Shown here: positions 3,001 to 21,911 of the stretch, in pieces
How positions within the stretch are numbered: position 1 is the first letter of the stretch
Layout of the letters: each line of letters begins with the position of its first letter
Assembly (NCBI GenBank): GCA_013153865.1
Contig: JAADDR010000054.1
Span: forward strand, 1 to 43,980
Source of the DNA: Chlorobiota bacterium
GTDB taxonomy: Bacteria > Bacteroidota > Bacteroidia > Bacteroidales > JAADGE01
Length of the DNA: 43,980 nt
Direction: 5' to 3'
The notes under the pieces: generated by a model
Databases searched by the model: none
What the model was told of the DNA's origin: nothing
The model's input: only the letters and a program-made list of their open reading frames with translations
Translations under genes and position numbers: made by a program

Positions 3001-4521
3001 CGCGACACGCGACATTACAGAATGAGCATAAATACTTTTAAAGGAAAACATTACAACCTTCATATAAGCATAGACAAAACACTGAAAACATCAAAAGGTT
3101 TGGAAACACTGTTCAGACAAATTGCTTTGGCGGGATACCCGTTCGATTTACCGGTAGTTCCGCGTTTCGGATGCAGCAATCACTCCGAAAAAATATCAAT
3201 ATCAAGTTATTTAAGCATGCTTACGGCATGGGATAAAATTCGAACTCTTGCCGAAGTTCAAGCATCCGGACATGTAGAACAGGCAAACACCTGGCGAAAA
3301 ATATATATCAGATCCGTAAGTGCATTTTACAAAGCATGGGATTACGGAGGCAGAGAAATATTACCCGGATTTATCTCACCCAACAATACCGCTCTCCCCG
3401 AAAACGACTTCTCCGACAATGCTCTTATTATTTCCCTTTCCGGATGGAGATATATCGAAAACAAAAGCAGCTTATTTTCGGCAATTTATCAAAATTACTA
3501 TCGGCAAGTTACGGCTCATTATCCGATACTGAAACGTTTTCTGAAAATAAGATGGATTTTTCACGCATGCATAGAAGCTTTCGGAAAAGAAAAAGGTTTA
3601 AAAATATTAAAAGAACTTTACGAAGAACTTAATAAAACAAAAACACATACCGAAAACGAAACAATTATTAAAAAAAATCTTAACGATTATCTTAAAACAT
3701 ACAAAAGCAAAGAATATCTGCCTCTGGCTCTATTTAACGCAATAGACAGATATACGGGATGGAAAAAGAAAAATCCGGCGGCAACCCCGGCTGCAAAACA
3801 TCAAACAATATCGGAATTGTACGATTTATACGCTTTAAAAAAATATCCGGAAATTGTAAGATACCGGTTTTACAGAGATACATATTTTAAAGAAGCCGAA
3901 GATGACGTAAAACATGCTTTCGATAAATTATTGGATAAAATGACCGAAAACATAAATATGCTTCCGGTTCAACTTACGGAATTATCCGGTTTACAAGAAG
4001 CTCTGAAAAATAAAACCGATAAAAAGATTTTTGAAAAAATGGTTTTTCCCGACATAAAAAGAAAACAAAAAATCGATATAATGACCGTAGGGAAAAAAGA
4101 CGAAGAACATGTTATAGTAAAATCAATTTTGAAAGACAAAGACAAAGTGGAATACATAATGAGAGAACCGCTCGAAGCAGCGGAAGTAGGAGAATTATAC
4201 AAACTGTTTTACAAAGAAAATTATCCGAAAGAAATATCCAAACCCGACAAACATTACATAGTTTTAGACTCCAACGAATTACTTATAGGAGGACTATGTT
4301 ACAAAGAACTTGAAGAAAACGTAGTATTAATAGACGGCATGGCAGTAACATCTACACTTCAAGGAAAAGGAATAGGTTCCGCCATGATGGAAGATTTCTT
4401 TACAAGAATGAAAATGAAAGGCAAAAAAATAATAAAAGCACACTTTCTGTTCGGCAATTATTATCTTAAACATAATTTCGTAATCGATAAAAAATGGGGA
4501 GCACTGGTTAAAGAATTATAA
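1..4521 (+). CDS. 5'-truncated multidomain protein: AMP-forming (long-chain type) acyl-CoA ligase + long unassigned region + C-terminal GNAT acetyltransferase
   Basis: Frame 1 is open to the left edge (NNLFSVFNTKKSYPDFNNREDAILFFLKESRKPEFLLQLK...), so the listed start at 109 (a TTG) is probably not the real start. AMP-binding motifs TSGSTGMPKG, GFGMTEATGG, DRVKDIYKNNKGQTVAPLKIE and LTPKGSFKRKI. GNAT motif A QGKGIGSAMM near the C-terminus. Stop TAA at 4519-4521. Confidence 0.9.
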   Translation, partial: NNLFSVFNTKKSYPDFNNREDAILFFLKESRKPEFLLQLKTEEEKNKWLNMVLCGIKDTQYGLLSMIKQRVKEHPDKILFKGKRKSQNFEWTYEQVFHSVKETAAFIYKIKPEKPRVALFMSNSVETAVTDLACLSFDIFNTPLNIHFNKDTLSYIIKKTDINIIITDTPQRLRIAASAIKDIDKDIKIAVTDINSSKLKDADFFLARERKKITLKEAEKILAERKIKPINHVVTTMFTSGSTGMPKGVSFSMYNIISKRFARALALPNVGNNEKLICYLPLFHTFGRYLELTGSIFWGGTYVFAGNSSSDTLLSLFPKENPTGFISVPVRWMQLYEACIKKLDGTENKKEQEDAVRSIVGKNLHWGLSAAGYLDPKIFRFFHKHGISLNSGFGMTEATGGITMTPSFEYKENSTGIPLPGIKTQLKKNGELQISGHYVARYLEDAGPDDIIPYPEEEDYKLPTGDIFRIDKDGHHEIIDRVKDIYKNNKGQTVAPLKIEKKFTGVPGIKKTFLVGDGKPYNVLLIVPDKNDPVMKASSKDENINEYFHQIVMTANKDLAPYERVINFSILERDFSKEKGELTPKGSFKRKIIEKNFAPLIKDLYKSNHITFNFKSFKVLIPRWFYRDIGILETDIIKTKKGLYNKTDNKYLRIEKTDKKNIFTIGDLNYTLNDPTIDLGRLIRQPKLWTGNPELINFSPCKASYDTPFKNFAPQISLPENNTKTYKTEDIEHLPPLGDFDLIVLNRLISQTLHGETKTVLKSLKEIETIFGEYEKNKAEIIRRRLEALAYHKNENIRIEAYRILLTKDPEPDFAELLPAFINSGKTFLNEYSINLLAKSSFSLRQLDILRKRMFIYRTTINWPADKNTIKQFDNIFKLLLKFGINHPKYYKSLRAEFASWILLKKEPVLSKKAKKYFFELYEGFEKYITKKSGKITENKLAEKLIFDDGITDKDQKELISKLAASHTLKQAIFLIYDDFNFKFENVPEKGIWVSRIKSYRDTRHYRMSINTFKGKHYNLHISIDKTLKTSKGLETLFRQIALAGYPFDLPVVPRFGCSNHSEKISISSYLSMLTAWDKIRTLAEVQASGHVEQANTWRKIYIRSVSAFYKAWDYGGREILPGFISPNNTALPENDFSDNALIISLSGWRYIENKSSLFSAIYQNYYRQVTAHYPILKRFLKIRWIFHACIEAFGKEKGLKILKELYEELNKTKTHTENETIIKKNLNDYLKTYKSKEYLPLALFNAIDRYTGWKKKNPAATPAAKHQTISELYDLYALKKYPEIVRYRFYRDTYFKEAEDDVKHAFDKLLDKMTENINMLPVQLTELSGLQEALKNKTDKKIFEKMVFPDIKRKQKIDIMTVGKKDEEHVIVKSILKDKDKVEYIMREPLEAAEVGELYKLFYKENYPKEISKPDKHYIVLDSNELLIGGLCYKELEENVVLIDGMAVTSTLQGKGIGSAMMEDFFTRMKMKGKKIIKAHFLFGNYYLKHNFVIDKKWGALVKEL

Positions 4522-4568
4522 ACCGTAGCATTCTGACATTGTTTTACCGAAATACCCTGAACTAAAAT

Positions 4569-4599
4569 AATAAAATCCGGCAAATTGCCGGATTTTATT
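4569..4599. terminator. Bidirectional intrinsic terminator between convergent genes
   Basis: Perfect inverted repeat AATAAAATCCGGCAA / TTGCCGGATTTTATT, A/T-rich on both flanks, between two convergent stop codons. Confidence 0.8.
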
Positions 4600-4622
4600 A
4601 TCTACAATCATTATAACCGGCT

Positions 4623-7600
4623 CTATCTCAACAGTGTAACACTTCCGTATTTCTTATCAGGACGACCGTTTTTGTAAATAACCGAAACTTTCCAGACATA
4701 AACGTCTTGCGGTGCCAATACGCCGTCCACATAACCGTCCCAACCTATGCAAATATCATTACTTGTAAATATTTTTTCTCCCCAACGGTTGTATATTTCA
4801 AGTTGATAATCTACTACACCGTATGCTTTTGGATAGAAAACATCATTCAAATTATCATTATCCACAATATATTTATCTCCGCAAGGATATACACCTCCGT
4901 TAGGACCGTTGGGATTAGGCGTAAATGCCGTCGGAAAAACAATCATACCGGAGTCTTGAACAATTACGGCATCGTGAATTGTTTTTGACTCAAAACAATC
5001 ATGGTCGCTCCAAACATTTAAAGTTATATCATACAATCCCGGAGACGAATACAGGTGCATCGGATTTTCTTCGGCAAGTTCGGGATTTGTATCTAAAGTA
5101 GAACCGTCGCCGAAATCCCAATAATATCTGCTTCCGTAATCGGAATAATTATAACATGATATTTGTTGATCCGGCAACATTACCAATCTGGGCGACACAT
5201 CAAAATCAACAACCGGTCTCGGATAAACAATAACGGTATCGGTTCTTGAATAATACGGATTCGATTGAGTTCCGCAAGCATCATTCCATGCAATTATTGT
5301 AGGATGATATACTCCCGGTTCGTCATAAACAAATACAGGATTGTTTTCTCTTGTAAATGTATCTGTATAATTCTGGTCGTTAATATCATAGAATCGCCAT
5401 AATACCGAATCGGCATAATAAACTCTGTCGTCAAACTCTACAAGTAAATCCTGACATCCTTGTGCTATCAAAGAACCGTCATCGTAAGAGAACGGACAAG
5501 GCGGCAATACCACAACCGTATCTCTGTAAACGCCGTCGCATTGTCCGGAACTTGTTCCGGTAAGAGTTATCACAAATGTTCCGGGTTCGTCGTATCGGAA
5601 ATCAAACGATCCTACAAACTCAGTATCATATCTGTTTTCGTTATTCCAACCGAAATCCCACAAATAAGAATCCAGATTAGTATCACTTCGGTTTTCGAAT
5701 GTAAATATCGCATTAGGTATTCTTCTTTCGTGAGAACCACCTATTTGGAATTCCACATCCGGAACGGCATAAGCCGTAACCGTTGATTGGAAAGTATCGG
5801 TACATTGTGTTTCGTAATCTATCGCAACAAGATAAATTGTATAAACGGAATCAGTACTTCCCGTATTAGTAAATACGTGAGTAATATCATCATTAACATC
5901 ATAAGTCGTTCCTACATAATTATCTTCCACTCTCCAACGGAATTCGTCGGGTTCGGTTAATCCGGGATAATAATCCGATGTGTTCGTAATAGTAACGGTA
6001 TCCGGAGCGCAGAATGTCGTCGGGTCTGTTTCGAATCTTGCAATAGGCGGTAAATTATATCTTATCATAACGGTATCCCTTGACTGACAATTTCCGTTAT
6101 CTACAAACCATTCGAAATAATTATCTCCGGGTTCGAGATCGTTTACAACGGTATTCCAAAGAGTATTGTCAACTATTGTTCCTCCTCCGAGGCCTACAAC
6201 AGTCCACACTTCATTAGCACCTTCCATATGCTGAGCATTCATTTGATGAGTTCTTTCGCACAATACTGCATCATCTCCGGCATCTACAAATATGGAATCG
6301 TTTGTTATAAGCACGTCGTCATATGCCGAGTAACCTACAAAACTTACAGTCCAACGATATACATTAGTTCCCTGATTAATGCCTCTTACTATTGTCTTCG
6401 GGTCGTGAATATCGTCAAATACTCCGCCTCCGCTTACAATAGACCAAGTTTGAGAACTTGCTCCTATTTCCGAACGTGCGTTAAGTTTAGCCGTATCGGT
6501 ACAAACTATTTGGTCGGCACCGGCATCCGGTATAAAGTTGGCAACTGTTATTGCTACATCGTCAGAAGACGAACAACCGTTTGTTTTGGTAACCGTCCAT
6601 GTAAACCGGTTTACACCTGTAGGCATATTATCAACATAAGAAGTCGGACTTGTAAGGTCTGCTATATTTCCGCTTCCGGAAAGTATAGACCATTGTCCGG
6701 TACCGTCTGCCGGCAATTCTGCTTCAAAATAAGTTGAAGTAGTAAGAGGCGGTAATGTTTGGTCTTCTCCCGCATAAGCATCAAAATCATTATTTATAAT
6801 TTGAACCAAATCGCCTCCGTTATCACATCCGTTTTCGTAAACGGTCCAGCGGAAAGTATTAACTCCTCTTTGTAAATTTGTTACAAGACTGTTAAATGCC
6901 GAAGGAGTTTGAACCACACCAGGTCCGCCTGCCGTTGTCCATATTCCGTAACCTCCGTTTTGAGGTTGGTCTCCGGAAAGATTTGTATAATCTTGACAAA
7001 CCGCCTGGTCAGCTCCCGCAGTAGCTGTTACCACATTATTAGTAATTACCACGTTATCGGCATCGGTACAAGTTAAGTTGGTAACAGTCCAAGTTAAAGT
7101 ATTTGTACCTTTTACCAATCCGGTAACGGTAGAGCCGTAATAAGTCGGGTCGGTAACCGTTCCCGCTCCCGCCGTTATAGTCCAAACACCCGTTCCGGCT
7201 ATCGGATTTTCGGCAGAAAGCGTAGCTTCCGAATGACATACAAATTGGTCGCCTCCGGCATGTGCATGAACTAAATTATTTGTTATAATAACTTCGTCCC
7301 AAGCCGAACATCCGTTTTTGTAAACAGTCCAACGGAAAGTATGCGGCGAATTATCCTGCAAACCGTTAACAACCGTTGTATTTGAGGTAGGTGTAACAAT
7401 TGTTACTCCGGGTCCGGAGAAACTCCAAATACCCCATCCGGGTGACGGGTCTTGTGCTTGCAATGTTACTGTTGTATCGCAAACTTCTTGGTTAAATCCC
7501 GCACTTGTGTAGAAAGAGTTTTCGGAAACTTGGACTTCATCTTGGTCGGTACATCCGTTACCGGAAACAGTCCACCTGAACACGTTAACTCCGGCACCTT

Positions 7601-7718
7601 GTCCGGTAACAACCGTTTCGTTGTTGCTCGGAGTTAATATCGTACCCGAACCGCTTACTAATGTCCATAATCCGCTTTCGCCGGGATATAATTCGTTGGC
7701 AACAAGATTAGCATCATT
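4623..7718 (-). CDS. C-terminal part of giant secreted repeat protein (Ig-like repeats, PKD-like domains, T9SS type B-like C-terminal sorting domain); no convincing start of its own
   Basis: Listed ORF 4623..7583 begins at a GTG in the middle of a repeat (..GVNVFRWTVSGNGC..). Same frame as the 7719..21911 ORF and continuous up to the TGA. C-terminus FPTAFTPNPNGPNGG...LNDVFYPKAYGVVDYQLEIYNRWGEKIFTSND...GWDG...APQDVYVWKV matches the gliding-motility-associated C-terminal domain pattern. Stop TAG. Confidence 0.85.
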   Translation of the reverse strand, partial: NDANLVANELYPGESGLWTLVSGSGTILTPSNNETVVTGQGAGVNVFRWTVSGNGCTDQDEVQVSENSFYTSAGFNQEVCDTTVTLQAQDPSPGWGIWSFSGPGVTIVTPTSNTTVVNGLQDNSPHTFRWTVYKNGCSAWDEVIITNNLVHAHAGGDQFVCHSEATLSAENPIAGTGVWTITAGAGTVTDPTYYGSTVTGLVKGTNTLTWTVTNLTCTDADNVVITNNVVTATAGADQAVCQDYTNLSGDQPQNGGYGIWTTAGGPGVVQTPSAFNSLVTNLQRGVNTFRWTVYENGCDNGGDLVQIINNDFDAYAGEDQTLPPLTTSTYFEAELPADGTGQWSILSGSGNIADLTSPTSYVDNMPTGVNRFTWTVTKTNGCSSSDDVAITVANFIPDAGADQIVCTDTAKLNARSEIGASSQTWSIVSGGGVFDDIHDPKTIVRGINQGTNVYRWTVSFVGYSAYDDVLITNDSIFVDAGDDAVLCERTHQMNAQHMEGANEVWTVVGLGGGTIVDNTLWNTVVNDLEPGDNYFEWFVDNGNCQSRDTVMIRYNLPPIARFETDPTTFCAPDTVTITNTSDYYPGLTEPDEFRWRVEDNYVGTTYDVNDDITHVFTNTGSTDSVYTIYLVAIDYETQCTDTFQSTVTAYAVPDVEFQIGGSHERRIPNAIFTFENRSDTNLDSYLWDFGWNNENRYDTEFVGSFDFRYDEPGTFVITLTGTSSGQCDGVYRDTVVVLPPCPFSYDDGSLIAQGCQDLLVEFDDRVYYADSVLWRFYDINDQNYTDTFTRENNPVFVYDEPGVYHPTIIAWNDACGTQSNPYYSRTDTVIVYPRPVVDFDVSPRLVMLPDQQISCYNYSDYGSRYYWDFGDGSTLDTNPELAEENPMHLYSSPGLYDITLNVWSDHDCFESKTIHDAVIVQDSGMIVFPTAFTPNPNGPNGGVYPCGDKYIVDNDNLNDVFYPKAYGVVDYQLEIYNRWGEKIFTSNDICIGWDGYVDGVLAPQDVYVWKVSVIYKNGRPDKKYGSVTLLR

Positions 7719-10700
7719 TCAGCAAGTTATAACATCCGCACCCGCCAATGCTTCAACCATATTATTTGTAATAACAACATCATCGTAATTAGAGCATCCT
7801 TCTTTTGTTATCGTCCATCTTAATGTATTGTCTCCTTTTAACAAGCCGTAAACTCTTGCCGTAGGACTTGTCGGGTCGTCAAACGAGCCGCCGCCAGCCC
7901 AAATACTCCAAGCACCGGTACATCCTTGTACAGGAATATTTCCGAGCAGGTCTGCAGAATCCGTACATATTACGTTCGGACCGGCAACACTTGCGCTTGC
8001 ATCATAAAGATTATTAGTTACAACCAAATCGGCATAATCAGAACAAGTTCCGTTACTGATTGTCCATCTGAATTTATTTTCGCCTTTATTCAAGTTTGTA
8101 ACTTCAGTATTATATAAAGCTGTATTTGTAATAATTCCGGTTCCTGCGGCAACGGTCCATACTCCGCTTTCGCCGGACTGAGGTTCATTACCGTTAAGAT
8201 AAGCTGTTGTACCGCAAACACTTATACTGTCACCAACAACAGCTGACACAGAATTATTAGTAACAGTAACTATTGCCGATGAAGTACATGTTCCGTTTGA
8301 AATAGTCCATCTGTATTGATTTATGTCAGGTCCTATATTTCTAACCGTAGTAGTATTTCCGGTTGAATTATCGAAAATACCGCTTCCTGCGGCAACGGTC
8401 CATACTCCGGAACCTGTAGTAGGCGGATTTCCGCTTATAACGGTATAATCCAAGCATATTTCCTGATCTGAACTTACCGTTGCCGGAGACGGAGTATTAT
8501 CATAAATACTTACATCATCGGAATTAGAACATGTTCCTCTGGTAACAGTCCATGTCAGTCTGTTTTCTCCTCCGGATAATCCCGAAACCGAAGTATTATA
8601 TAAAGTCGGGTCGGCAAATATTCCGCTTCCTCCGGTTACCGTCCACATACCTGTTTCTCCGGCACCGGGTTGGTTTCCGTTTAATGCGGGATAATCAGAA
8701 CCGCAAATTTCATCGTCCATACCCGCCGAAGCAAATACAAGTTCATTCATTATCAATACATCGTCATAAGATTCGCATATTCCTTCGGTAACTGTCCACC
8801 TGAAAGTATTGCCTCCCGAACCGAGACCTGTTACCAATGTATTGTAATTACTCGGGTTTGCAATTATTCCGGCACCTCCGAGTCTTGTCCATATACCTTC
8901 TCCTACGGAAGGATTATTTCCGGAAAGGACAACCGTTCCGTCGCAAACCGTTTGGTCGGCACCTGCATCGGCAGGAGTAGGTGTATCATTGGAGATTGTA
9001 ACTACATCCCATGCCGAGCATCCTCCTTTTGTTGCAGTCCATTTAAAGATATTAGAACCGGATGCAAGATTTCTTACAACCGTATTATATAAGGTTGCAT
9101 TATCAAATACCGGAGTTCCGGCAGAGTTAACGATAGTCCAAATTCCTGTTCCGGGAGCGGGATTATCGGCAGATAAAACGGCTGTATCCGTACAGAGCGA
9201 TGCATCTAATCCGGCATCAGTAGTTATGGTATTGTTATCTATAACGATATCATCATAAGTAGAACATACGGAGTTTGATATTGTCCATCTGAATGTATTA
9301 GATCCCGAACCTATATCATAAGCCGTAGTAATGTTAGAGGTAGGATCCGCAATAGTAGCGGTTGCCCCGAACTCTTTAGTCCAAATTCCGGTTTCTCCCG
9401 AACCGGGGGCATTACCTACAAGAGTGTAAACAGAACTGCATATTTCAACATCCGGAGAAACTAATGCTACCGTCGGAGAAAGATTTGTTATTACAACCGT
9501 ATCGGCAGCAGAACAGGTTCCGTTTGATAAAGTCCATACTAATCTGTTATCGCCTTGGACTAATCCGATAACATCGGTATTATATTGAGTGTCGTTAATA
9601 AATGAAGCTGTTCCTCCGGCTACGGTCCACAATCCTGATTCGCCGGTATGAGGAGCCAATGCTGCAAGGGTTGTTGATGTTCCGCATATCGAACGGTCAA
9701 CACCTGCATTTACATCGGTAATTTCATTATTGTTTATGATTACCTCATCGGAATTAGAACAAGCGCCTTCCGTAATAGTCCAAGTAAATATATTAACTCC
9801 TTTACTTAATCCCGTAACGGTTGAATTATAGAAAGTCGGATTTGTAATTACTCCGCTTCCGCCGGAACGAGTCCATATTCCGGAAGCAGAACCCGGATTA
9901 TTTCCTGCAAGTGTTGTATTATCCGAACATAAATCTTGGTCTAATCCGGCATTTACGAATACTTCGTTGTTTGTTACCACTACGTCGTCATAATCCGAGC
10001 AACCTGCGTAGCTTTGATGCCAACGCAAAGTATTCGGTCCGGGAGCCAATCCGGATACGGTAGTATTAAACATTGAAGCATTTGCAAAAGTTCCCGAACC
10101 TATTGCTTCCCAATATCCTGTTCCGGGATAAGGATCCGCCGCCATTAATGATGCTGTTCCGTCGCATGTTGACATATCGGTTCCGGCATCGGCAACGACA
10201 TCGTTAAATGTTATTGTTACTTGATCTTCCGCCGAACAAGATGCGTTTGTAACAGTCCAAGTAAATATTGCGGAACCGTTTGATAAGCCGGTAACCGTAG
10301 TGTTCGGCAAGGTACTGTTTGTAATTACTGCAGTAATACCTCCTGTTTGAGTCCAAGCACCTGTTTCTCCGGCTGCGGGACTGTTTCCTGATAATGTAAC
10401 GTTATCAACACAAGTTGATTGGTCGGGTCCGGCATTTACAACAGGCAGATTATTGTTTATTGTAACATCGTCATAATTGGTACATCCTGATTCCGTAACC
10501 GTCCATCTGTAAATATTTGTACCTTGTCCTATATCGGAGACGTAAGTTCCGTTGGAAGAAATATCGGTAAATGTTCCGCTGCCCGTAACAACCGACCAAA
10601 CACCCGATCCGGGAGCGGGATTATTTGCTCCCATATACGTAAAGTTATCACACAAGTCTTGCGTTGCTCCGGCATTTGCAACCGGATTTACATAGGTTAC

Positions 10701-13700
10701 CGTAATATTTGCATCATCTGAACAATCTCCGTTATCTATAGTCCAAACGAAAGTATTATTTCCTTCGGCAAGATTATGAGCATCCGTGTTGTATAAAGTA
10801 ACATCATCAAAAGTTACTCCGGGAGTAAATGTAGTCCAAATACCGTTTTCACCCGGAGCGGGATTATTTCCCGTTAAGGTTATATTTCCGTCGCAAGTTA
10901 AAGCATCGGCAGCTGTTGCACTTACCGATCTGTTAACTATAACAACATCGTCATATACCGAGCAACTTCCTTTTGTTACCGTCCAACGGAAGGTATTGTT
11001 TCCGTTAGGTAATCCGGAGATGCGCGTTGTTTCCGACAATGAATTGTCTATTACAACACCGCCGATTCCCATATATGTCCAATATCCTGTACCTTGGAAA
11101 GGATACATTGCCGTAACCGGCGTAGCATTTAAGGTTGTAGTATCCGCACAAAGTAATTGGTCAGGACCTGCTTCAGCCGCAACAATATTGTTAATAATGG
11201 TAACATCGGCCGAACTGCTGCAAGATCCGTTAGATATAGTCCATGTGAATATATTTACTCCGGGATCCAGTCCTGTAACTAATGTTTGATAATTTGTCGG
11301 ATTTGCAAATGTCCCGTTTCCCGTATTTAATGACCAGAGTCCTGTTCCGTATGAAGGAACATTACCTTGAAGGACGACCGAACTTGTGCAAACTTCTCTG
11401 TTTGCAGGTCCGGGAGCCGTAATAACGGCAATATCCGGATTTGTATTTTCTATTGTAATATCGTCGTAATTAGTACATATATCTCTTGTAACCGTCCAAC
11501 GGAAAACGTTATCGCCCTGTGCCAATCCTGTAACCGTTGCATTATATTGTGTTGAATTGGAAATAATACCGCTTCCTCCTATAAGAGTCCAATAACCTGT
11601 TCCGGGAGCCGGGTCGTCGGCATTAAACGTATAAGAATCTACACAATCCGATACGTCCGGTCCTGCACTTAAATCGAAATTATTATTAGTTACTGTTATT
11701 GTGGTATTATCGTTACAAGTTCCGTTATCAACAGTCCATTTCAATGTAGTGGTAGATCCGTTCGGCACACCGGTAATTGTCGTATTATATAATGTACTCG
11801 GTGCCGTAACGGTTCCTCCTCCGGCTATTATTTCCCAATATCCCGTACCTCCGAAAGAAGCAGGGTCATTACCGGTTAAAGTAAAGTCTCCGTCGCATTC
11901 GCTTAAATCGCTTGCAACCGCCGTAACGGAGTTGTTTATTATCTGAACCAAATCAGAAGCCGAACAGTTTCCTTTAGTTACGGTCCATTGGAATGTTGTT
12001 GTACCGCTTTGCAAAGCGGATACCTGAGTATTTGTCAATAAAGAATTTTGTATTATTGCCGAACTTCCGCTTAAATCGGTCCAATATCCCGTACCCTGTC
12101 CGGGATATATTACGGAAGGATCCGTGGCATTTAAAACGGTATTGTCGGTACATAATGTTTGGTCAGGACCGGCTACCGCCGCAACTTCATTATTTGTTAT
12201 AGTAATAATATCTTCGCTCGGAGCACAAGATCCTCTTTCTATAGTCCATTTAAATATATTATCTCCGGGAGTTAATCCGGTAACATTCATAATATAAGAA
12301 TCCGAAGCATCAACAAATGTACCTCCGCCGCTGATTACCGACCAAAAACGATTATCTCCGTAATACGGTACGGGTTGATTTGCCGTTAAAGTAATCGTAC
12401 CGTCGCAAGTTTCTGTATCTGCAGGACCGGTAATCAGTGCCGTACTCGGAGAATTATTAATAATATCGACATCAGCCGAGTTTTGGCATCCGTTTCTGTT
12501 TACCGTCCATGTATAAGTATTTGTTCCTTGCAATATTCCGGATACTACGGCAGTATTTGAAGATATGTCGCTGAAAGTTCCCGCACCTGCGGCAACAGTC
12601 CAATATCCGGTACCTGTCAAAGGATCATCGGCATTCATTGTTGCGGTATTTTGACAAATTGTTTGTGTAGTTCCGGCACTTAAATTAAAATTATTATTTG
12701 TAACGGTAATAGTAGTATTGTCGCTGCAAGTTCCGTTTGTAACGGTCCATCTTAAAGTTGTTACCGCTCCGTTCGGAACTCCTGTTACGGTAGTATTATA
12801 TAAAGTACTCGGAGCTGTTATTGTTCCGCTTCCGGCAACTATTTCCCAATATCCCGAACCTCCGGTATAAGTAGAAGGATCGTTACCGGTTAACGTAAAG
12901 TCGCCGTCGCATTCTTCCAAATCCGTTGCTACCGCTTCAACGGAATTATTTGTAATAAGAACATCATCGGATGCCGAACAAATACCTTGAGTAACAGTCC
13001 ATGTAAAAGTTGTTGTTCCGATAGGTAAACCGGTAACTTGAGTGGTCATTACCGAAGGATCAACTATTACGGCCGTATTTCCGGTAGTATTTGTCCATAT
13101 TCCGGTTCCTTGATTAGGATATATAACAGAAGGATCGGTAGCATTTAAATTAGTGTTATCCGCACAAAGCATTTGATCGGCTCCGGCAACTGCCGTTACT
13201 TCGTTATTAATAACGGTAATTTGATCTTGCGATGTACAAGTTCCGTTAGATATAGTCCAAGTTAAAACATTATTTCCGGGGTATAAATTATTAACGGTTG
13301 TTTGATAATTTAAACTGTTCGTAAAATATGCACCCGTCGGAGATGTTGAAATTGTCCACACACCGGTACCGAATACCGGGTTGGTTCCTTCAACGGCAAT
13401 CGAGTTTGTACAGACCTCTCTGTCGGAAGGAATGGGAGTAACAATTGTTGCAACGGTAGGCAAGTTATTTATTATTTTCACCGAATCAATTGCCGTACAA
13501 CCTCTTACAACATCAGTAACAGTCCAATAAAATACATTGTCTCCGGGGGTTAAACCCGTAACGGTTGAATTGTACAGAGTAGGAACGGTAACCGTTGCTC
13601 CTCCTGCAACTACCGACCATATTCCCGAGTATCCCGCACCGTGATCTTGAGCTCCGAGAGTTGCCGTTGATGAACATAAAGCTTGGTCGGGTCCGGCGGA

Positions 13701-16700
13701 AGTCGAAAATTCTCCGTTATCTATCGTAATATCTATGCTGTCTCTACATCCTGCCGTATTACTTACCAACCATCTGAAAGTATTAACTCCGGTTCCGAGA
13801 TTTGTTACGGAAGAAACGTTTAATGTCGGATCCGTAATTACGGGTGAGCCGGAAGACCCTATCAATGTCCATAACCCGTCTGCAGAACCGGGATTATTTC
13901 CGTCAAAAACAGCACTGTTCGTACAAACAACTTGGTCTGAAGCATTTGCATAGACCGCATTATTTGTAACATTAGCATCGTCAGAATCGGAACATCCTCC
14001 GAGAGACATAGTCCATCTGAACGTATTAAGTCCTTGTGTTAAGTTTGTAACTTTAGAATTATAAAAAGTCGGATTTACAACAGTACTTGTTCCCGTAATT
14101 ACTGACCATGTTCCCGTTCCTTGATACGGGAAATTCAGATTCGGGTCGGCAGCCAATAAATCGGTACTGTCGGCACAAACAAATTGCGGCAATCCGGCTT
14201 CAGCTATTACCATATTATTAGTCAATACGATATTATCGGATTTAGAACATCCGTTGTTAGTTACCGTCCATACAAATTCGTTATTTCCGGGTTGTAAACC
14301 TGTAACTGCTGTATTAATGTCGGTAGGATCAACAATTATTGTTGAAGCACCTCCGGCGTATATACTCCAAATTCCCGTACCTATCGGCGGAGCAGGGCTA
14401 ACCGATATAGTTGAATTTACACCGCAAACTTCTTTGTCTGCTTCCATGGTAAAGTCGTCCGGTTCGTTATTTATAATTTCAACTTCGTCGTCGGCAGAAC
14501 AATTTCCTTTTACAATATGCCATCTGAATCTGTTTTGTCCTTGTGCTAAATTTGTAACACCGGAATTATATAAAGTAGGAGTTGTAACAGTTCCTCCGCC
14601 AAAAGTAGTAAACCATTGTCCTGTTTCTCCGTTTGCCGGCACACCTCCGTTTAAAGTCGCTGTATTCGTACAAACACTGAAATCGGGGCCTGCATTGGAT
14701 GTTACGGTATTATTATCAACTTGAACCAAATCCGATGCATTACATCCGAAACGCGTAACATGCCATTCGAAGACGCTGTTAGGTTTCGGAATTCCCGTAA
14801 CGGCTGTATTGTATAAAGTAGGATCTTGAATTGTTCCTCCTCCGGAATATATAGTCCAATATCCTGAAGCACCTCCGACGGTTCCGGGCTGTTCTGCCGC
14901 AAGAATTATATCTCCGTCGCAAGTTTCGAGGAGGTTGGGATCAGTATTGACATCAGCATCTATCGTAAATTCATTATTCGTAATATCCAATGTACTTGAA
15001 GCATTACATCCTCCTTTTGTTATAGTCCACGTAAGATTGCTTATTTTAGAACCTACATTATTTAAGTTTCTGACAGTTGTATTATATAATGTGGGATTAT
15101 CAAATGTAACCGTTCCGGGAAATACCGACCATTGTCCCGTCGGGAAAGGAGCAGAACCGGTATTGTAAATATTCGGATCCGTAGCCGATAATACATACCA
15201 ATCTTGGCAAACAGCACTGTCGTTATCCGCAACACCGTGTAATATAGCATCTTGTCCTATTCGGTCATCGGCATCAGACATCACCATATTATTAAATACC
15301 GTAATTGTATCCGAAGACGTACATCCGTCATTATCTATAGTCCAAACAAAATATCTTGTCCCGAGACCTATGCCGGTAACATTAGTAACATTATCAGTCG
15401 GGGAAGCTATAGTTCCCGAAGGAACCGGGACTTCAGTCCAAAGACCTTGCCCCCATATCGGAACATTAGCTTGTAATGTCGTATAATCTTCGCATATTTC
15501 GTACGAATCGGGTAACGCGACTACCGAAGTTGTGGGTATTCTGACTTGAACAACAACTTGGTCGGAAGCTGAACACGTTTTTCCGTTATGTGTTGCGGAA
15601 ACATTCCAAGAATAAATATGGTCGCCGTTTTGCATTCCGGTAACAAGCGTATTATAAAGTGTAGGAGTTACAATAACGGACGGTCCGGGATTAATAACCG
15701 GAGACCAATATCCTGACATAGGCGGATTAACTTGTGTAGCGCCTAAATTATAAGTTGCTCCGGGTCCTTCGACACCGCAAACGAAGCCGTCGGAGCCGGC
15801 TTCGGCAACAACAGTGTTATTAAATACCGTCATGGTATCGGTTAATTCACATTGTCTGGTTATTCCTGCAACATAATCGCTGAAATCATGAACAGAATGC
15901 CATATGAAAGAAACTTCCGTTTGTTGGGGAATTCCGGTAACCGAAGTATTTGTAAGTGATGTATTTTCGAAAGTTACGATACCCGAAGGCCAAGCCGACC
16001 AATAACCTGAATAATATCCTTCTTGCCAGATATCGTTAGGCGGTACGGGGTCTTCAAAATACCAATGTCCCGTTACATTATTGGCATTTAAAGATGTAGA
16101 ATCATCACAAATTGTTTGGTCTAAATCGGCATTAGGAGCAGGCGGCAACAAATTCCAAACTACTATATCATCAGAGTTGCTGCATATTCCGTTAGTAAGA
16201 GTCCAAGTAAACGTATTTCGACCGGTAGACAGTCCTCTTACAATATCATTAGCCAAAGTAGAAGTATTTGTTCCTGAAGAAACGAAAGTTCCCGAACCTC
16301 CGAACCAAATACCCGTTGCACCGGCAGGAACATTAGCCGATAATTGTGCAGTATCGGCACACATATATATATCCGCGCCTGCATCCGCAACGATACCGCT
16401 GTATGTTACATTTAAAGTATCCGTTAAATCACAAACCAAAGGATTGGAATCTGTATATCCGGCATAAGGTCCTGTATATTCGTTAGTTACAGTCCACAGA
16501 AATGTATTTAAGCCGGAAGTTAAGTCTTGTGCCAAAGCATCGCAAGCAAAGAAAGTACAAGAATTTCCGACAATATGCGCACCTCCGGTAAGTACCGTCC
16601 AAGAAGCATCTGTATATCTTGCCGGAACATTTGCGGAAAGAACGGTATGGTCCACACAAACTTCCTGATCGGGACCGGCATCGGCATTAGAAGGACGCCC

Positions 16701-19145
16701 GCTGTATATATAAACATCATCAGACATCAAACAATTTAAATCATGGTTAATGATTGTCCACCTGTAAATATTAGTATATGCAGCCATATCCCTTACGGTA
16801 GTATTATGATCCGTAGGATCATCGAATACTCCGTTTCCGAAAATAGTAGTCCATTCTCCCGTTGTGTTATACACATGAGGCGGAGAGGAAAAAACAGTAT
16901 CGGGATCTGTTCCGTTTAAAGTATAATAATTTTCACAAACGGCATCATTTGTACCCGCTTGTACATCTTCAAAATCACCGAGAGAAGTTATTTCCACCGT
17001 ATCCGTAAGTTCGCAAACTATAGGATTCCCCTGAGAATCGGTAAAATTATTTCTTTTATGCCATACAAACTGTGTCATTCCGTCTTGTATAGGTTCCACA
17101 TGTGTATTAAAAGGCATATGAGTATCATTATCCGGTATTACATTGCCTGTTTCGGGGTCGTAGAAAGTTCCCACATCCGGTAATTGTTCCCACCAATGTT
17201 CTTGAGTACATGAAGCTTCGTCCAAAGCATCGAGGTTTACAACATTATCACAAACCGTTGTATCTATACCGGCATCCGGGGCCTCCGGTAAACCGTTAAG
17301 AACTCTGACTTGATCCGTAGATTCACAAGTACCTCTTCTGATAACCCATTCAAAAACATTAACGGCATTAACATTTGTCCACCAATCCGGGGTCCAAGGA
17401 GTACAGTTATAATCAAGATTTGATACTGAAGAATTTGCCAAAGTCGGGTCGGTAATAGTTGCTCCTCCCGCAATTACTCGCCAAAAACCGATTTCTCTGG
17501 TTGCATCATAATTACTTCCGTTTAAGTTGGGTAAATAAGTACTGCACACAATTGTATCATTCCCTGCATCGGCAGGTGTCGGAATGCTGTTTATTACTGT
17601 TATGGTATCCGAATCGGTACAAATTCCGTTAGAGATGGTCCAAATAATATTATTGGCTCCGGGATCCAAATTACTGACAGTTGTATTCCAAGATAAAGGA
17701 TTGTCAATATGAGAACCTCCCGATTGTACTGTCCAAAATCCGTTTGCAAAAACAGCAGGATTTGCTATATCTTGAGTTGAAGGATTATTTGCAGTAATTA
17801 AAGGAGAAGGATCCGTACATGATATTAAAGGATCTGTAGTTGAAATAACGGCATCAACCGACATATTATATATAGTAACAATATCGTCGGAAGAACAAAT
17901 ATCATGAGATACCGTCCATTGTAAAACATTTATTCCTCTCTGAAGATTTGTAACCAAAGTTGTATTTGAGTTAGGATTAACGATATTTCCGCTGCCGGTA
18001 GTAAAAGACCAAAGTCCTGTTTCTCCCGCCTCAAGCGGTGTAGCTGCAAGACTGTAATCATTTACGCATATAGTATCGTCAAGTCCGGCATCCACAACCG
18101 GAGGATAATAATAATTTACAGTAAGATCTGCCGTAGATTCCGGACAAGTTCCGTTTGTAATATGCCATGTAAATAAGTTAGCGCCTTCTTGTAAATTAGA
18201 TACACCTGTAGTAGCGTTATTAGCATCTGAAATAACCACACCTGCCGTAGAAGTTGTCCAATATCCTGATTCGTCAGGATCTGCGGCATCCGCCGGAGTA
18301 GCAATAATAGTATATGTACCGTCGCATGAAGTACTAGGGTTCGGAGTTGTTATTGTTGCCGTTGTAGGAATATTATTTTGAACATCAACACTTGCTTGTG
18401 CCGAACATCCGTTTACGGTTACTGTCCAAATATAGGTATTAACAACATCTTGATTGGAACCTGTAACTGTAGTGGTAGGAGCTGTAGCATCAGCGAAAAC
18501 TCCTCCCCCGGCTCCGACAGTCCAAACTCCCGTTCCTCCCAATGCCGCAGGGTCATTACCTTGAACAATAAAAGGTTCCGAACATATTTCAGCCGGAGCT
18601 CCGGCAGTTGCCCATACTTCTATAACGTCCACATTCATAATTGCATAATCCGAACATGTTTCTTTAGTAACAGTCCAACGGAATTGATTAGTATTGTAAT
18701 TTAAACCCGAAACGGCGGTTGTTCTGTTTGTAGGATTAGCAATAACCGGAACCGGTGAAGGAGAACCTTCGACGGTCCAAAGTCCTGTTTCTCCCGGATT
18801 TAAAGCATAATCGGCTTGCAGAGTCGCATTAGTTCCGCAAACATTTGTAATATCCGTTACCGAAGCAACAACGGTATTATTAACAATCACAACATCGTCC
18901 CAAACTTGGTAGCTTCCGTCCGAATTTGATAAAGTCCAACGGAAAGTATTACTGTTGTTCGGAGCAAGTCCGCTGTTAAGTCCGGTAACTAAAGTATTAT
19001 AAAGCGTAGGATCGGCAAAAACGCCTGCTCCGTCTATAACAGACCAAGTTCCGGTATATCCGCTCGGAGGTTGGTTTCCGTTAAGAACATATGAATTATC
19101 CACGCAGGTAGTGTCATCTACGCCTGCATTAGCCGTAACACCCGA
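6052..19145 (-). repeat. Tandem array of about 51 protein-coding repeats (about 80 aa / 240 nt each, Ig-like, two Cys each)
   Basis: Hand-segmented translation. Recurrent ..DAG.D...C.., ..G.W.., ..P...NT.VT.L..G.N.F.WTVT.G.CS..D.V.I.NN. Count is approximate. Confidence 0.9.
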
Positions 19146-21911
19146 AGTTATTACAAGATTCCATGATTGATTAACAGTTGAAGTTCCGTCCGAAACGGAT
19201 ATTGTAATCGAATTATTTAAAGCTGCTCCGCTCGGGGGTGTTCCGGATAATGTTGCGGTACCGTCGCCGTTATCCGTAAGTGTAAGCCAAGAAGGTATTG
19301 TTACGGCAGAAATTGTCAGAGGATCGCCGTCAGCATCGGTTGTTGTAATACTGTAAGTATAAAGTACGTTTTCAGAGCCTGTGGTAACAGGTGTTGAAGT
19401 AAATTCCGGGTCATCGTTAACCGCAGTAATGTTTATATTGAAATCGGTAGCGGATATAGAGCCTCCGCTGCCGTCCGAAACCTTAAAAGTAAAAGAATCA
19501 GTTGTTCCTTCAGAACCGTCATGCGAATATGTTAAAGCATTTGCGTCTATATCAGCTTGAGTGAACGTGCCGTTAAGAGCTAAAACAGTTCCGCTTACGG
19601 AGAGAGTTCCGTGAAGAGGTAAAGCCGTAACGGTAAAAACAATTTCGGAAGCAGTATTATCGACATCGGTAACTTGTAACAAAGCGTTGGAGATTATATT
19701 GTTTATATCTCCTTCATTAATATTCAAAGGGTTATTATTTACTAACACCGGCACATCATTTACGGCATTAATCGTAATCGTAAAAGTTTGTGTCGGGCTT
19801 GTATCATCGCCTCCGTTTGCCGTTCCGCCGTCGTCGGTAAGATATATATCAACATTTGCAACTCCGTAAGCATCTGCAAGCGGAGTATAAGTTAAATCGC
19901 CGGTAGCGGGGTCAACATCAGGTTGAGCGGTAAATAAGCCGGCATTATCATTGGATAAGTGAAAAGTGAGATTTTGCGTAAGTTCCGGGTCTCCGTCATC
20001 AATATTTGTTGCCCAAGCATTTACCGTTTGCGCTCCTGCATCTTCGTTTATTGTTTGGTCTGCACCTTTTGTGAAGGAAGGTTCGCTGTTTACGGCATTT
20101 ACATTAATAGTCATCGTATATGTAGTGCTGAAGTCCGTTCCGTCATATACTCTGAAATTGAAACTTGTATAAGGGTTACCGTTTTCATCCGGATTAGGTC
20201 TGTATCTTAAAATATTCGAAGATATATCGGAAACATTTACGATATTTCCTGCCGCGAGCGGCGATTCCGAACCGTTAATTGTTCCGTCGCCGTCGGTATC
20301 AAGCCATAAATCGCCGAGTCCGGGAACTGTTGTTGTTTCCAATTGAGAGAAAGCATCTCCTTCAACATCGGCATATCCGAAGTCTGCTTCGGCGAAAGTA
20401 TAGAAAAGATTTTCCGGTGCGGAAACGGTATTATCGGCACCCGTAGGCGGGTCGTTAACTGCCGTAACGGTAATTGTAAATGTTTGAGAAGGACTTGTAT
20501 CATCGCCTCCGTTTGCCGTTCCGCCGTCGTCGGTAAGATAAACGGTTACGTTTGCAACTCCGTTTGCATTTGCCGCCGTAGTAAAAGTTAAATCGCCGGT
20601 AGCGGGGTCAACATCGGGTTGAACCGAAAAAAGCCCGTTATTATCGTTTGATACGTGAAATGTTAAAGTTTGCCCGGATTCATCCGGAGCTCCGGCATCT
20701 ATGGATGATGCCCATGCACTGAAAGTATATGCTCCGACATCTTCATTTACTGTTATATTTCCTCCTGCCGTAAAATAGGGTTCGCTGTTTACCGCCAATA
20801 CATCAATTGTCATTGTATATGTTGCGGTGCTGTATTGAGTTCCGTCATTAACTCTGAATTGGAAATACGTATATCCTGCACCGTTTTCATCAGGCAACGG
20901 CATATATTTCAGATATCCGGAATTAATATCGAATGCAGATACTACGTCGCTTGAAGCTAATGCCGTTTCCGAACCGTTTACCGTGCCGCTTCCGTCTGTA
21001 TCAAGCCACAGCGTGCCTTTTCCGGGAGCCGTGGTAACTTCTATATGGTCGAAAGCATCGCCTTCTACGTCGTTATATCCGAAATGCCCGGTAGCAAAAG
21101 TAACCGAGGCATTTTCGTAGCAAGAAACCGTATTGTCGGCACCCGTAGGCGGGTCGTTAACTGCATTTACGGTAATAGTAAAATTATAATGGCTGCTTTC
21201 GTCGTCGCCTCCGTTTGCCGTTCCGCCGTCGTCGGTGAGATATACGGTAACTGTTGCGGAACCGTTTTGGTCTGCTGCCGGAGTGTATGTTAAATCTCCG
21301 GTAACGGGGTCAACATCGGGTTGGGCGGAGAAAAGCCCGTTATTATCATTTGACACATGAAATGTTAAAGTTTGCCCCGATTCGTCAGCGGGTCCGGGGC
21401 TCATTGCCGCAGCCCATCCGCTTACCGTTTGCGGTCCTGCATCTTCGTTTACTGTTTGATTTGCACCGCTTGTAAAAGAAGGTTCGTCATTAACCGGAGT
21501 AATATCGAAAGTCATTGTGTAAGAAGAAGAACTCCAGCCGTCGTCTCCGTCGTAAACCCAAAAGTCGAAATCGTTATAAGAGTTTCCGTTATCGTCGGGA
21601 TCCGGTCTGAATTTAATTCGCGGTATATCTCCTTCGGGAATGTCTGTTGTGGAGGTTATTTCTTCTCCCGAGTCAATATCATTATCTCCGTCGGAGTCGT
21701 AAAATAATGTCCCCGAACTTCCGGAGAGCGGAGTTACTCTTACGGTAGTAAACGGGTCTCCGTCGGAGTCGCTGTAATTAAAATCTCCCGAGACAAAAAC
21801 ATAGTCGTTGTCTTCGAGAGCGGTTACCGTATTATCGGCTGCCGTAGGCAATTGAGCTTCAGCCGATAATCCGACAAGGGTAAACAGGAATAGAACAAAA
21901 AACTTTTTCAT
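7719..21911 (-). CDS. N-terminal part of giant secreted cadherin-like / Ig-like repeat protein
   Basis: 4730-aa ORF. Signal peptide MKKFFVLFLFTLVGLSAEA|Q. Three cadherin-like units, then about 44 complete repeats with consensus AGxDxxxCxxxxxLxxNxPxxGxGxWTxxxGxGxxxxPTxxNTxVTGLxxGxNxFRWTVTxGxCSxxDDVxIxNN. Ends at TGA immediately after a conserved repeat Cys. Confidence 0.95.
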   Translation of the reverse strand: MKKFFVLFLFTLVGLSAEAQLPTAADNTVTALEDNDYVFVSGDFNYSDSDGDPFTTVRVTPLSGSSGTLFYDSDGDNDIDSGEEITSTTDIPEGDIPRIKFRPDPDDNGNSYNDFDFWVYDGDDGWSSSSYTMTFDITPVNDEPSFTSGANQTVNEDAGPQTVSGWAAAMSPGPADESGQTLTFHVSNDNNGLFSAQPDVDPVTGDLTYTPAADQNGSATVTVYLTDDGGTANGGDDESSHYNFTITVNAVNDPPTGADNTVSCYENASVTFATGHFGYNDVEGDAFDHIEVTTAPGKGTLWLDTDGSGTVNGSETALASSDVVSAFDINSGYLKYMPLPDENGAGYTYFQFRVNDGTQYSTATYTMTIDVLAVNSEPYFTAGGNITVNEDVGAYTFSAWASSIDAGAPDESGQTLTFHVSNDNNGLFSVQPDVDPATGDLTFTTAANANGVANVTVYLTDDGGTANGGDDTSPSQTFTITVTAVNDPPTGADNTVSAPENLFYTFAEADFGYADVEGDAFSQLETTTVPGLGDLWLDTDGDGTINGSESPLAAGNIVNVSDISSNILRYRPNPDENGNPYTSFNFRVYDGTDFSTTYTMTINVNAVNSEPSFTKGADQTINEDAGAQTVNAWATNIDDGDPELTQNLTFHLSNDNAGLFTAQPDVDPATGDLTYTPLADAYGVANVDIYLTDDGGTANGGDDTSPTQTFTITINAVNDVPVLVNNNPLNINEGDINNIISNALLQVTDVDNTASEIVFTVTALPLHGTLSVSGTVLALNGTFTQADIDANALTYSHDGSEGTTDSFTFKVSDGSGGSISATDFNINITAVNDDPEFTSTPVTTGSENVLYTYSITTTDADGDPLTISAVTIPSWLTLTDNGDGTATLSGTPPSGAALNNSITISVSDGTSTVNQSWNLVITSGVTANAGVDDTTCVDNSYVLNGNQPPSGYTGTWSVIDGAGVFADPTLYNTLVTGLNSGLAPNNSNTFRWTLSNSDGSYQVWDDVVIVNNTVVASVTDITNVCGTNATLQADYALNPGETGLWTVEGSPSPVPVIANPTNRTTAVSGLNYNTNQFRWTVTKETCSDYAIMNVDVIEVWATAGAPAEICSEPFIVQGNDPAALGGTGVWTVGAGGGVFADATAPTTTVTGSNQDVVNTYIWTVTVNGCSAQASVDVQNNIPTTATITTPNPSTSCDGTYTIIATPADAADPDESGYWTTSTAGVVISDANNATTGVSNLQEGANLFTWHITNGTCPESTADLTVNYYYPPVVDAGLDDTICVNDYSLAATPLEAGETGLWSFTTGSGNIVNPNSNTTLVTNLQRGINVLQWTVSHDICSSDDIVTIYNMSVDAVISTTDPLISCTDPSPLITANNPSTQDIANPAVFANGFWTVQSGGSHIDNPLSWNTTVSNLDPGANNIIWTISNGICTDSDTITVINSIPTPADAGNDTIVCSTYLPNLNGSNYDATREIGFWRVIAGGATITDPTLANSSVSNLDYNCTPWTPDWWTNVNAVNVFEWVIRRGTCESTDQVRVLNGLPEAPDAGIDTTVCDNVVNLDALDEASCTQEHWWEQLPDVGTFYDPETGNVIPDNDTHMPFNTHVEPIQDGMTQFVWHKRNNFTDSQGNPIVCELTDTVEITSLGDFEDVQAGTNDAVCENYYTLNGTDPDTVFSSPPHVYNTTGEWTTIFGNGVFDDPTDHNTTVRDMAAYTNIYRWTIINHDLNCLMSDDVYIYSGRPSNADAGPDQEVCVDHTVLSANVPARYTDASWTVLTGGAHIVGNSCTFFACDALAQDLTSGLNTFLWTVTNEYTGPYAGYTDSNPLVCDLTDTLNVTYSGIVADAGADIYMCADTAQLSANVPAGATGIWFGGSGTFVSSGTNTSTLANDIVRGLSTGRNTFTWTLTNGICSNSDDIVVWNLLPPAPNADLDQTICDDSTSLNANNVTGHWYFEDPVPPNDIWQEGYYSGYWSAWPSGIVTFENTSLTNTSVTGIPQQTEVSFIWHSVHDFSDYVAGITRQCELTDTMTVFNNTVVAEAGSDGFVCGVEGPGATYNLGATQVNPPMSGYWSPVINPGPSVIVTPTLYNTLVTGMQNGDHIYSWNVSATHNGKTCSASDQVVVQVRIPTTSVVALPDSYEICEDYTTLQANVPIWGQGLWTEVPVPSGTIASPTDNVTNVTGIGLGTRYFVWTIDNDGCTSSDTITVFNNMVMSDADDRIGQDAILHGVADNDSAVCQDWYVLSATDPNIYNTGSAPFPTGQWSVFPGTVTFDNPTLYNTTVRNLNNVGSKISNLTWTITKGGCNASSTLDITNNEFTIDADVNTDPNLLETCDGDIILAAEQPGTVGGASGYWTIYSGGGTIQDPTLYNTAVTGIPKPNSVFEWHVTRFGCNASDLVQVDNNTVTSNAGPDFSVCTNTATLNGGVPANGETGQWFTTFGGGTVTTPTLYNSGVTNLAQGQNRFRWHIVKGNCSADDEVEIINNEPDDFTMEADKEVCGVNSTISVSPAPPIGTGIWSIYAGGASTIIVDPTDINTAVTGLQPGNNEFVWTVTNNGCSKSDNIVLTNNMVIAEAGLPQFVCADSTDLLAADPNLNFPYQGTGTWSVITGTSTVVNPTFYNSKVTNLTQGLNTFRWTMSLGGCSDSDDANVTNNAVYANASDQVVCTNSAVFDGNNPGSADGLWTLIGSSGSPVITDPTLNVSSVTNLGTGVNTFRWLVSNTAGCRDSIDITIDNGEFSTSAGPDQALCSSTATLGAQDHGAGYSGIWSVVAGGATVTVPTLYNSTVTGLTPGDNVFYWTVTDVVRGCTAIDSVKIINNLPTVATIVTPIPSDREVCTNSIAVEGTNPVFGTGVWTISTSPTGAYFTNSLNYQTTVNNLYPGNNVLTWTISNGTCTSQDQITVINNEVTAVAGADQMLCADNTNLNATDPSVIYPNQGTGIWTNTTGNTAVIVDPSVMTTQVTGLPIGTTTFTWTVTQGICSASDDVLITNNSVEAVATDLEECDGDFTLTGNDPSTYTGGSGYWEIVAGSGTITAPSTLYNTTVTGVPNGAVTTLRWTVTNGTCSDNTTITVTNNNFNLSAGTTQTICQNTATMNADDPLTGTGYWTVAAGAGTFSDISSNTAVVSGILQGTNTYTWTVNRNGCQNSADVDIINNSPSTALITGPADTETCDGTITLTANQPVPYYGDNRFWSVISGGGTFVDASDSYIMNVTGLTPGDNIFKWTIERGSCAPSEDIITITNNEVAAVAGPDQTLCTDNTVLNATDPSVIYPGQGTGYWTDLSGSSAIIQNSLLTNTQVSALQSGTTTFQWTVTKGNCSASDLVQIINNSVTAVASDLSECDGDFTLTGNDPASFGGTGYWEIIAGGGTVTAPSTLYNTTITGVPNGSTTTLKWTVDNGTCNDNTTITVTNNNFDLSAGPDVSDCVDSYTFNADDPAPGTGYWTLIGGSGIISNSTQYNATVTGLAQGDNVFRWTVTRDICTNYDDITIENTNPDIAVITAPGPANREVCTSSVVLQGNVPSYGTGLWSLNTGNGTFANPTNYQTLVTGLDPGVNIFTWTISNGSCSSSADVTIINNIVAAEAGPDQLLCADTTTLNATPVTAMYPFQGTGYWTYMGIGGVVIDNSLSETTRISGLPNGNNTFRWTVTKGSCSVYDDVVIVNRSVSATAADALTCDGNITLTGNNPAPGENGIWTTFTPGVTFDDVTLYNTDAHNLAEGNNTFVWTIDNGDCSDDANITVTYVNPVANAGATQDLCDNFTYMGANNPAPGSGVWSVVTGSGTFTDISSNGTYVSDIGQGTNIYRWTVTESGCTNYDDVTINNNLPVVNAGPDQSTCVDNVTLSGNSPAAGETGAWTQTGGITAVITNSTLPNTTVTGLSNGSAIFTWTVTNASCSAEDQVTITFNDVVADAGTDMSTCDGTASLMAADPYPGTGYWEAIGSGTFANASMFNTTVSGLAPGPNTLRWHQSYAGCSDYDDVVVTNNEVFVNAGLDQDLCSDNTTLAGNNPGSASGIWTRSGGSGVITNPTFYNSTVTGLSKGVNIFTWTITEGACSNSDEVIINNNEITDVNAGVDRSICGTSTTLAALAPHTGESGLWTVAGGTASFINDTQYNTDVIGLVQGDNRLVWTLSNGTCSAADTVVITNLSPTVALVSPDVEICSSVYTLVGNAPGSGETGIWTKEFGATATIADPTSNITTAYDIGSGSNTFRWTISNSVCSTYDDIVIDNNTITTDAGLDASLCTDTAVLSADNPAPGTGIWTIVNSAGTPVFDNATLYNTVVRNLASGSNIFKWTATKGGCSAWDVVTISNDTPTPADAGADQTVCDGTVVLSGNNPSVGEGIWTRLGGAGIIANPSNYNTLVTGLGSGGNTFRWTVTEGICESYDDVLIMNELVFASAGMDDEICGSDYPALNGNQPGAGETGMWTVTGGSGIFADPTLYNTSVSGLSGGENRLTWTVTRGTCSNSDDVSIYDNTPSPATVSSDQEICLDYTVISGNPPTTGSGVWTVAAGSGIFDNSTGNTTTVRNIGPDINQYRWTISNGTCTSSAIVTVTNNSVSAVVGDSISVCGTTAYLNGNEPQSGESGVWTVAAGTGIITNTALYNTEVTNLNKGENKFRWTISNGTCSDYADLVVTNNLYDASASVAGPNVICTDSADLLGNIPVQGCTGAWSIWAGGGSFDDPTSPTARVYGLLKGDNTLRWTITKEGCSNYDDVVITNNMVEALAGADVITC
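19757..21850 (-). repeat. Three tandem about 700-bp cadherin-like units
   Basis: Repeated protein blocks GADNTVS..EN..F...FGY.DVEGDAF, SEPSFT.G..QTVNEDAG, ESGQTLTFHVSNDNNGLFS.QPDVDP.TGDLT, VTVYLTDDGGTANGGDD. A 47-nt block is identical at 19798..19844 and 20494..20540, with 32 nt of it again near 21205..21236. Confidence 0.9.

Follow-up and report, generated by a model that had tools for sequence, protein, structure and literature searches.

A minus-strand reading frame in the window, the whole 43,980-nucleotide stretch of DNA analysed here, encodes a giant T9SS surface protein that resembles SprB and GhpA and is interrupted by a nonsense codon in the source assembly. We think it very probable that this is the gene of a T9SS-exported surface filament, in which a long stalk projects an N-terminal head, and that the gene carries here one recent nonsense codon or a base-call error. 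Although other giant surface proteins of the T9SS have been described, a structural anchor exists for few of them. A new finding is that, by sequence search and predicted fold, the stalk repeat has its closest solved relative in the base of GhpA, a T9SS protein that forms heptameric grappling hooks in Aureispira.

A giant frame interrupted by one TGA

The first-pass annotation had described one protein of about 5,760 codons at 4623-21911. Both the coordinates and the size are right: a single minus-strand frame runs from an ATG at 21911 to a TAG at 4623, 5,763 codons counting the final stop (Table 1). It is not open as one protein, however, as a TGA that had been missed cuts the export tag off from the signal peptide. 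Because this TGA breaks the frame once, an ORF finder lists an ATG ORF of 4,730 amino acids (7719-21911) and a separate downstream ORF, the latter without a signal peptide. Signal peptide and sorting tail thereby fall on separate products, the sequence as written encodes no exportable cargo, and the deposited gene should be treated with caution as other than an intact cargo. The two ends are not joined on a continuous protein in the window sequence, where the TGA lies between them; they are joined in the complete open orthologs of four congeners (G001, 5,778 amino acids; G004, 5,616; G005, 5,614; and G009, 5,612).

Table 1. Features of the giant gene, in window coordinates.
Feature	Position	Strand	Details
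Interrupted giant frame	4623..21911	minus	5,762 codons, the internal TGA counted among them, followed by the closing TAG
Signal-peptide-like N-terminus MKKFFVLFLFTLVGLSAEAQ	21852..21911	minus	Residues 1-20; read from sequence
Cadherin-like head	19140..21851	minus	About 900 aa, residues 21-924; Pfam matches
Stalk of 51 tandem Ig/PKD-like repeats	6051..19139	minus	Residues 925-5287; mean repeat length 82.6 aa
PKD-type domains between stalk and tail	4890..6050	minus	PF18911, PF00801
CHU_C / type B T9SS sorting tail	4626..4859	minus	PF13585, TIGR04131 matches
Upstream open part	7722..21911	minus	4,730 aa: signal peptide, head, repeats 1-44
In-frame TGA	7719..7721	minus	Codon 4,731; glycine codon in 8/8 relatives readable there
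Downstream open part	4626..7718	minus	1,031 codons, covering the greater part of repeat 45, all of repeats 46-51, the PKD domains and the tail

The TGA falls just after the first cysteine of repeat 45, and the eight relatives with glycine at this site include two from other genera. Compared with the near relative G012, dN/dS was 0.107/1.303 upstream of the TGA and 0.115/1.346 downstream, about 0.08 in both parts. Using G001 as the outgroup, we counted 28 lineage-specific amino-acid changes downstream of the TGA in the window protein and 59 in G012. The equal ratios on both sides and the smaller number of window-specific changes give no sign of an old pseudogene, an explanation that we ruled out because selection downstream of the TGA is unchanged. 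TGA also terminates three of the 23 genes in the window, and the genome encodes prfB (release factor 2), indicating that TGA is a normal stop and that the genetic code is standard; together with the glycine codons in relatives, this rules out a recoded TGA. As selection downstream is not relaxed, the TGA must have arisen very recently as a nonsense mutation, or else it is an error of the draft genome.

We put at about even the chance that the TGA arose in base calling or assembly, in which case the organism itself has an intact gene. It is a single substitution among 5,762 codons, every readable relative is intact at the site, the gene shows no decay, and the source genome (labelled G000, its contigs C19, C94 and so on) is a draft assembly of 202 contigs. 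Yet among the other T9SS-tail frames matched in this genome, not one is broken by a stop inside the matched stretch, so errors are not frequent. Programmed read-through or recoding that yields a small fraction of full-length protein would fit the undiminished purifying selection on the downstream part, but it is highly improbable given that the stop is absent at this site from every relative, with glycine codons throughout, that RF2 is encoded and other genes end in TGA, and that a recent mutation or an error accounts for the same data.

Interruptions similar to this TGA were found in other draft genomes of the genus, with an in-frame TAA in a T9SS-tail gene of G003 (C123:999-2390) and in SprA of G009 (C89). 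A contig break in G003 beside the stop site was examined as a coincidence, and no meaning was found in it.

A conserved stalk under two versions of the head

Using an HMM built from the giant protein's own repeats, we identified all repeats at i-E < 0.01 and found exactly 51 members of one family of about 83 residues, where the first-pass annotation had counted about 51 Ig-like two-Cys repeats. Two cysteines are present exactly in 44 of the 51, and two tryptophan columns are filled in every repeat. Based on their positions, the two cysteines of a repeat would form one disulfide within it. An AlphaFold2 model of three repeats revealed a chain of Ig-like beta-sandwich domains (mean pLDDT 97.8), in agreement with the Ig-like label. 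The stalk matches Pfam PF22352 (K319L-like_PKD) above the cut-off; this family, like PF16184 and PF17803 in the head, is a general domain family that implies no function for stalk or head. Between the stalk and the tail, the PKD-like domains noted at first reading match two Pfam PKD families, and the alignment of relatives contains three PKD-like stretches in this region. The model of the tail region, including the PKD domains, reached a pLDDT of 87.8.

The signal peptide had been recognised from the sequence, and we likewise read a signal-peptide-like N-terminus there; its pattern of MKK followed by a hydrophobic stretch also occurs in six relatives. A Pfam search of the body confirmed the cadherin-like units, with matches above the cut-off in the head to Cadherin_3 (PF16184), Cadherin_4 (PF17803, five times) and Big_9 (PF17963), and a match to Cadherin_5 slightly under the cut-off. 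DxDxDG loops at residues 304 and 538 suggest that the head may bind calcium. The domains recognised in the head include none that is known to bind a particular ligand.

The stalk is conserved repeat by repeat within the genus. Nearly every repeat of the window protein finds its best match in the equally numbered repeat of G001, making the two arrays one-to-one orthologous. The orthologs in G004, G005 and G009 contain 49 repeats; their numbering is shifted by two from repeat 38 or 39 onward, as would fit a difference of two repeats located between repeats 34 and 38. Among the paralogous repeats of the window protein, mean identity is 35%, which indicates an old and fixed stalk. A recently expanded or phase-variable array was ruled out by this low identity and the same-place best matches in G001, and TRF finds no tandem array in the gene.

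The head, in turn, comes in two versions. The window protein, G001, G003, G004 and G005 carry version 1 (62-85% identity), and G009 and G013 carry version 2, which is 93% identical between them and 37-43% identical to version 1. The two are nearly equal in length (920 residues in version 2, 924 in version 1), and the stalks beneath them are 71-75% identical over repeats 1-8. Such an exchange of heads on a constant stalk would fit a distal binding module, and a one-to-one conserved stalk under two heads of equal length offers a natural design to test which part binds. As a separate observation, G001 and G004 are 86-92% identical at residues about 1401-2200 and 41-82% identical elsewhere, a block that suggests intragenic recombination between lineages.

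The stalk family also occurs in a smaller paralog in the source genome. This protein of 1,482 amino acids, encoded on C19 (294-4742 of the extracted locus), contains 17 repeats of the family and is about 46% identical to the giant protein, colinear over 670 amino acids. It ends in a type A tail and is thus predicted to be sorted by PorV rather than by a PorP/SprF barrel. Copies of similar size are found in most congeners. A second giant frame in the source genome, on C94, encodes 4,827 amino acids with a type A T9SS tail. Beside the giant gene, window positions 1-4521 encode an unusual fusion protein in which a long middle region joins an AMP-binding ligase to a GNAT acetyltransferase at the C-terminus; this gene lies downstream of and convergent with the giant gene in the window and in G001, G003, G009, G012 and G013. 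We also noted that contig JAUVIG010000104.1 of a congeneric MAG deposited as 'Chlorobiota bacterium CSMAG_422' is identical to G013:C382, and its next-best matches are Bacteroidales, so the deposited label is possibly wrong.

Predicted export and surface retention

The first-pass annotation had assigned the C-terminus to T9SS type B sorting from its motif pattern. The family assignment is supported by the CHU_C model PF13585 (33.5 bits, above the cut-off of 27) and by the blocks NRWGE..F, GWDGY, QDVYVWKV and GxVTLLR, which are common to 34 aligned relatives with invariant W, G and motif columns. The match to the type B model TIGR04131 itself is sub-threshold, at 25-31 bits against a curated cut-off of 35, and all 34 aligned relatives match this model at E <= 0.001. 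A solved-structure search with the tail alone returned weak PKD matches only. Searching the source genome, we found SprA, PorV, GldM and five PorP/SprF-family proteins. The type B proposal is therefore contradicted neither by a lack of sorting-model matches nor by a lack of T9SS genes, even with TIGR04131 below its threshold.

Both secretion and anchoring of type B cargo involve binding of the tail to a PorP/SprF barrel (PMC9143113, PMC12618676), and it is such barrels that anchor the cargo (PMC9143113). In F. johnsoniae, type B tails require a cognate PorP/SprF-like shuttle, usually encoded by the next gene, although three orphans share one distant shuttle (PMC12618676). The source genome encodes nine type B and 56 type A sorting tails, and a PorP-family gene directly follows just one of the nine type B genes, that on C128. 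No PorP/SprF gene lies beside the giant gene in the window, or downstream of it in G001, G004 or G009; the window gene is an orphan type B gene, like the F. johnsoniae orphans.

Together with the predicted fold of the repeats, these matches support the assignment of the protein as a type B cargo of the T9SS, with predicted export and a long body resembling a filament. Of the earlier proposal of a very long extracellular filament or adhesin, the filament-like T9SS body is supported, and adhesion is a plausible role. For the genus as a whole, we expect the protein to enter the periplasm via its signal peptide (Sec export), to fold and form its intrarepeat disulfides there, and to cross the outer membrane through SprA; we base these first steps on the known T9SS pathway. 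Its type B tail would then be held by a PorP/SprF-family barrel, keeping the protein at the surface, and the cadherin-like head at the N-terminus would stand roughly 200 nm away from the cell on the stalk of 51 repeats, a length that we scale from a filament of 49 domains measuring about 180 nm (PMC13319060). There the head may have a binding partner, most likely a glycan, a surface or another cell. If the TGA is read literally, a 4,730-residue fragment without the sorting tail would instead be trapped in the periplasm.

Comparison with SprB and GhpA

Like the adhesin SprB of Flavobacterium johnsoniae (6,497 amino acids; PMC9870892), the window protein combines giant size and a filamentous surface character with a type B T9SS tail. 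It is unlikely, in our estimate, that the protein is a functional analogue of SprB moved along a helical track as a gliding adhesin. The type B tail and giant size would fit such a role, as some type B tails in F. johnsoniae ride the gliding machinery (PMC12618676), but other type B cargo of that species is static. The source genome does contain a PorP/SprF-family gene followed directly by a GldJ-like gene (C136:11196-13748), although the GldJ match is under the cut-off (434.7 against 458.2 bits). The expression of SprB is coupled to that of sprF (PMC9143113), whereas the giant gene is adjoined by no such gene.

GhpA (grappling hook protein A) of Aureispira sp. CCB-QB1 is secreted by the T9SS and assembles into heptameric grappling hooks, with which the flagella of prey are caught during ixotrophy (PMC11205867, PMC13319060). 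Searching the repeat profile against solved structures yielded GhpA (PDB 9flp, 9fls, 9flu-9fly, 9g8b) as the one strong relative, with an E-value of 3.6e-249. Consistent with this, a Foldseek search placed the GhpA base first (E 4e-17, 35% identity), followed by titin (5e-11). Both are giant T9SS proteins (5,898 amino acids in GhpA, 5,762 here), and GhpA residues about 4686-5754, which lie partly inside the solved base (4151-5009), are built of the same repeat family as the window stalk. The matching repeats are tail-proximal in both proteins, and the tails are weakly similar. In GhpA, however, the neck and shaft (about 1127-4686) consist of other Ig-like domains, where the window protein has a cadherin-like head instead, and residues 1-4600 gave no alignment to the window protein at i-E < 1.

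These results raise the prospect that several copies of the window protein bundle laterally, in the way that seven GhpA chains do, and form a stiff filament that would catch prey or neighbours with its ends. The near-equal length, the shared repeat family in the same tail-proximal position and the rank of the GhpA base as best PDB match by sequence and fold all speak for such a hook, which we nonetheless consider doubtful. The good match is confined to the tail-proximal region of GhpA, the neck and shaft align without significance, and the T6SS sheath gene VipB was not found in the source genome. In two controls, the same GhpA region was also matched by the type A paralog on C19, and the repeat family proved widespread, occurring in 88 of 247 genomes of the class at E <= 1e-20, some of them in frames of 3,000-5,000 amino acids. 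The paralog match and the class-wide spread indicate that the shared repeat is evidence for common descent of the stalk domain and not for a hook; we did not accept the window protein as a GhpA ortholog, given the unaligned shaft and neck and the paralog match.

A more general conjecture, to which we likewise give little weight, is that surface filaments of several chains, similar to GhpA and carrying interchangeable cadherin heads on a fixed stalk of 49-51 repeats, are a product of this genus, in bacteria where no T6SS sheath gene was found. If so, hook-type filaments would be a device for cell capture or attachment broader than the predatory ixotrophy in which they were discovered. The link between this widespread repeat family and the solved GhpA base provides an experimental template for many unannotated giant proteins of the class.
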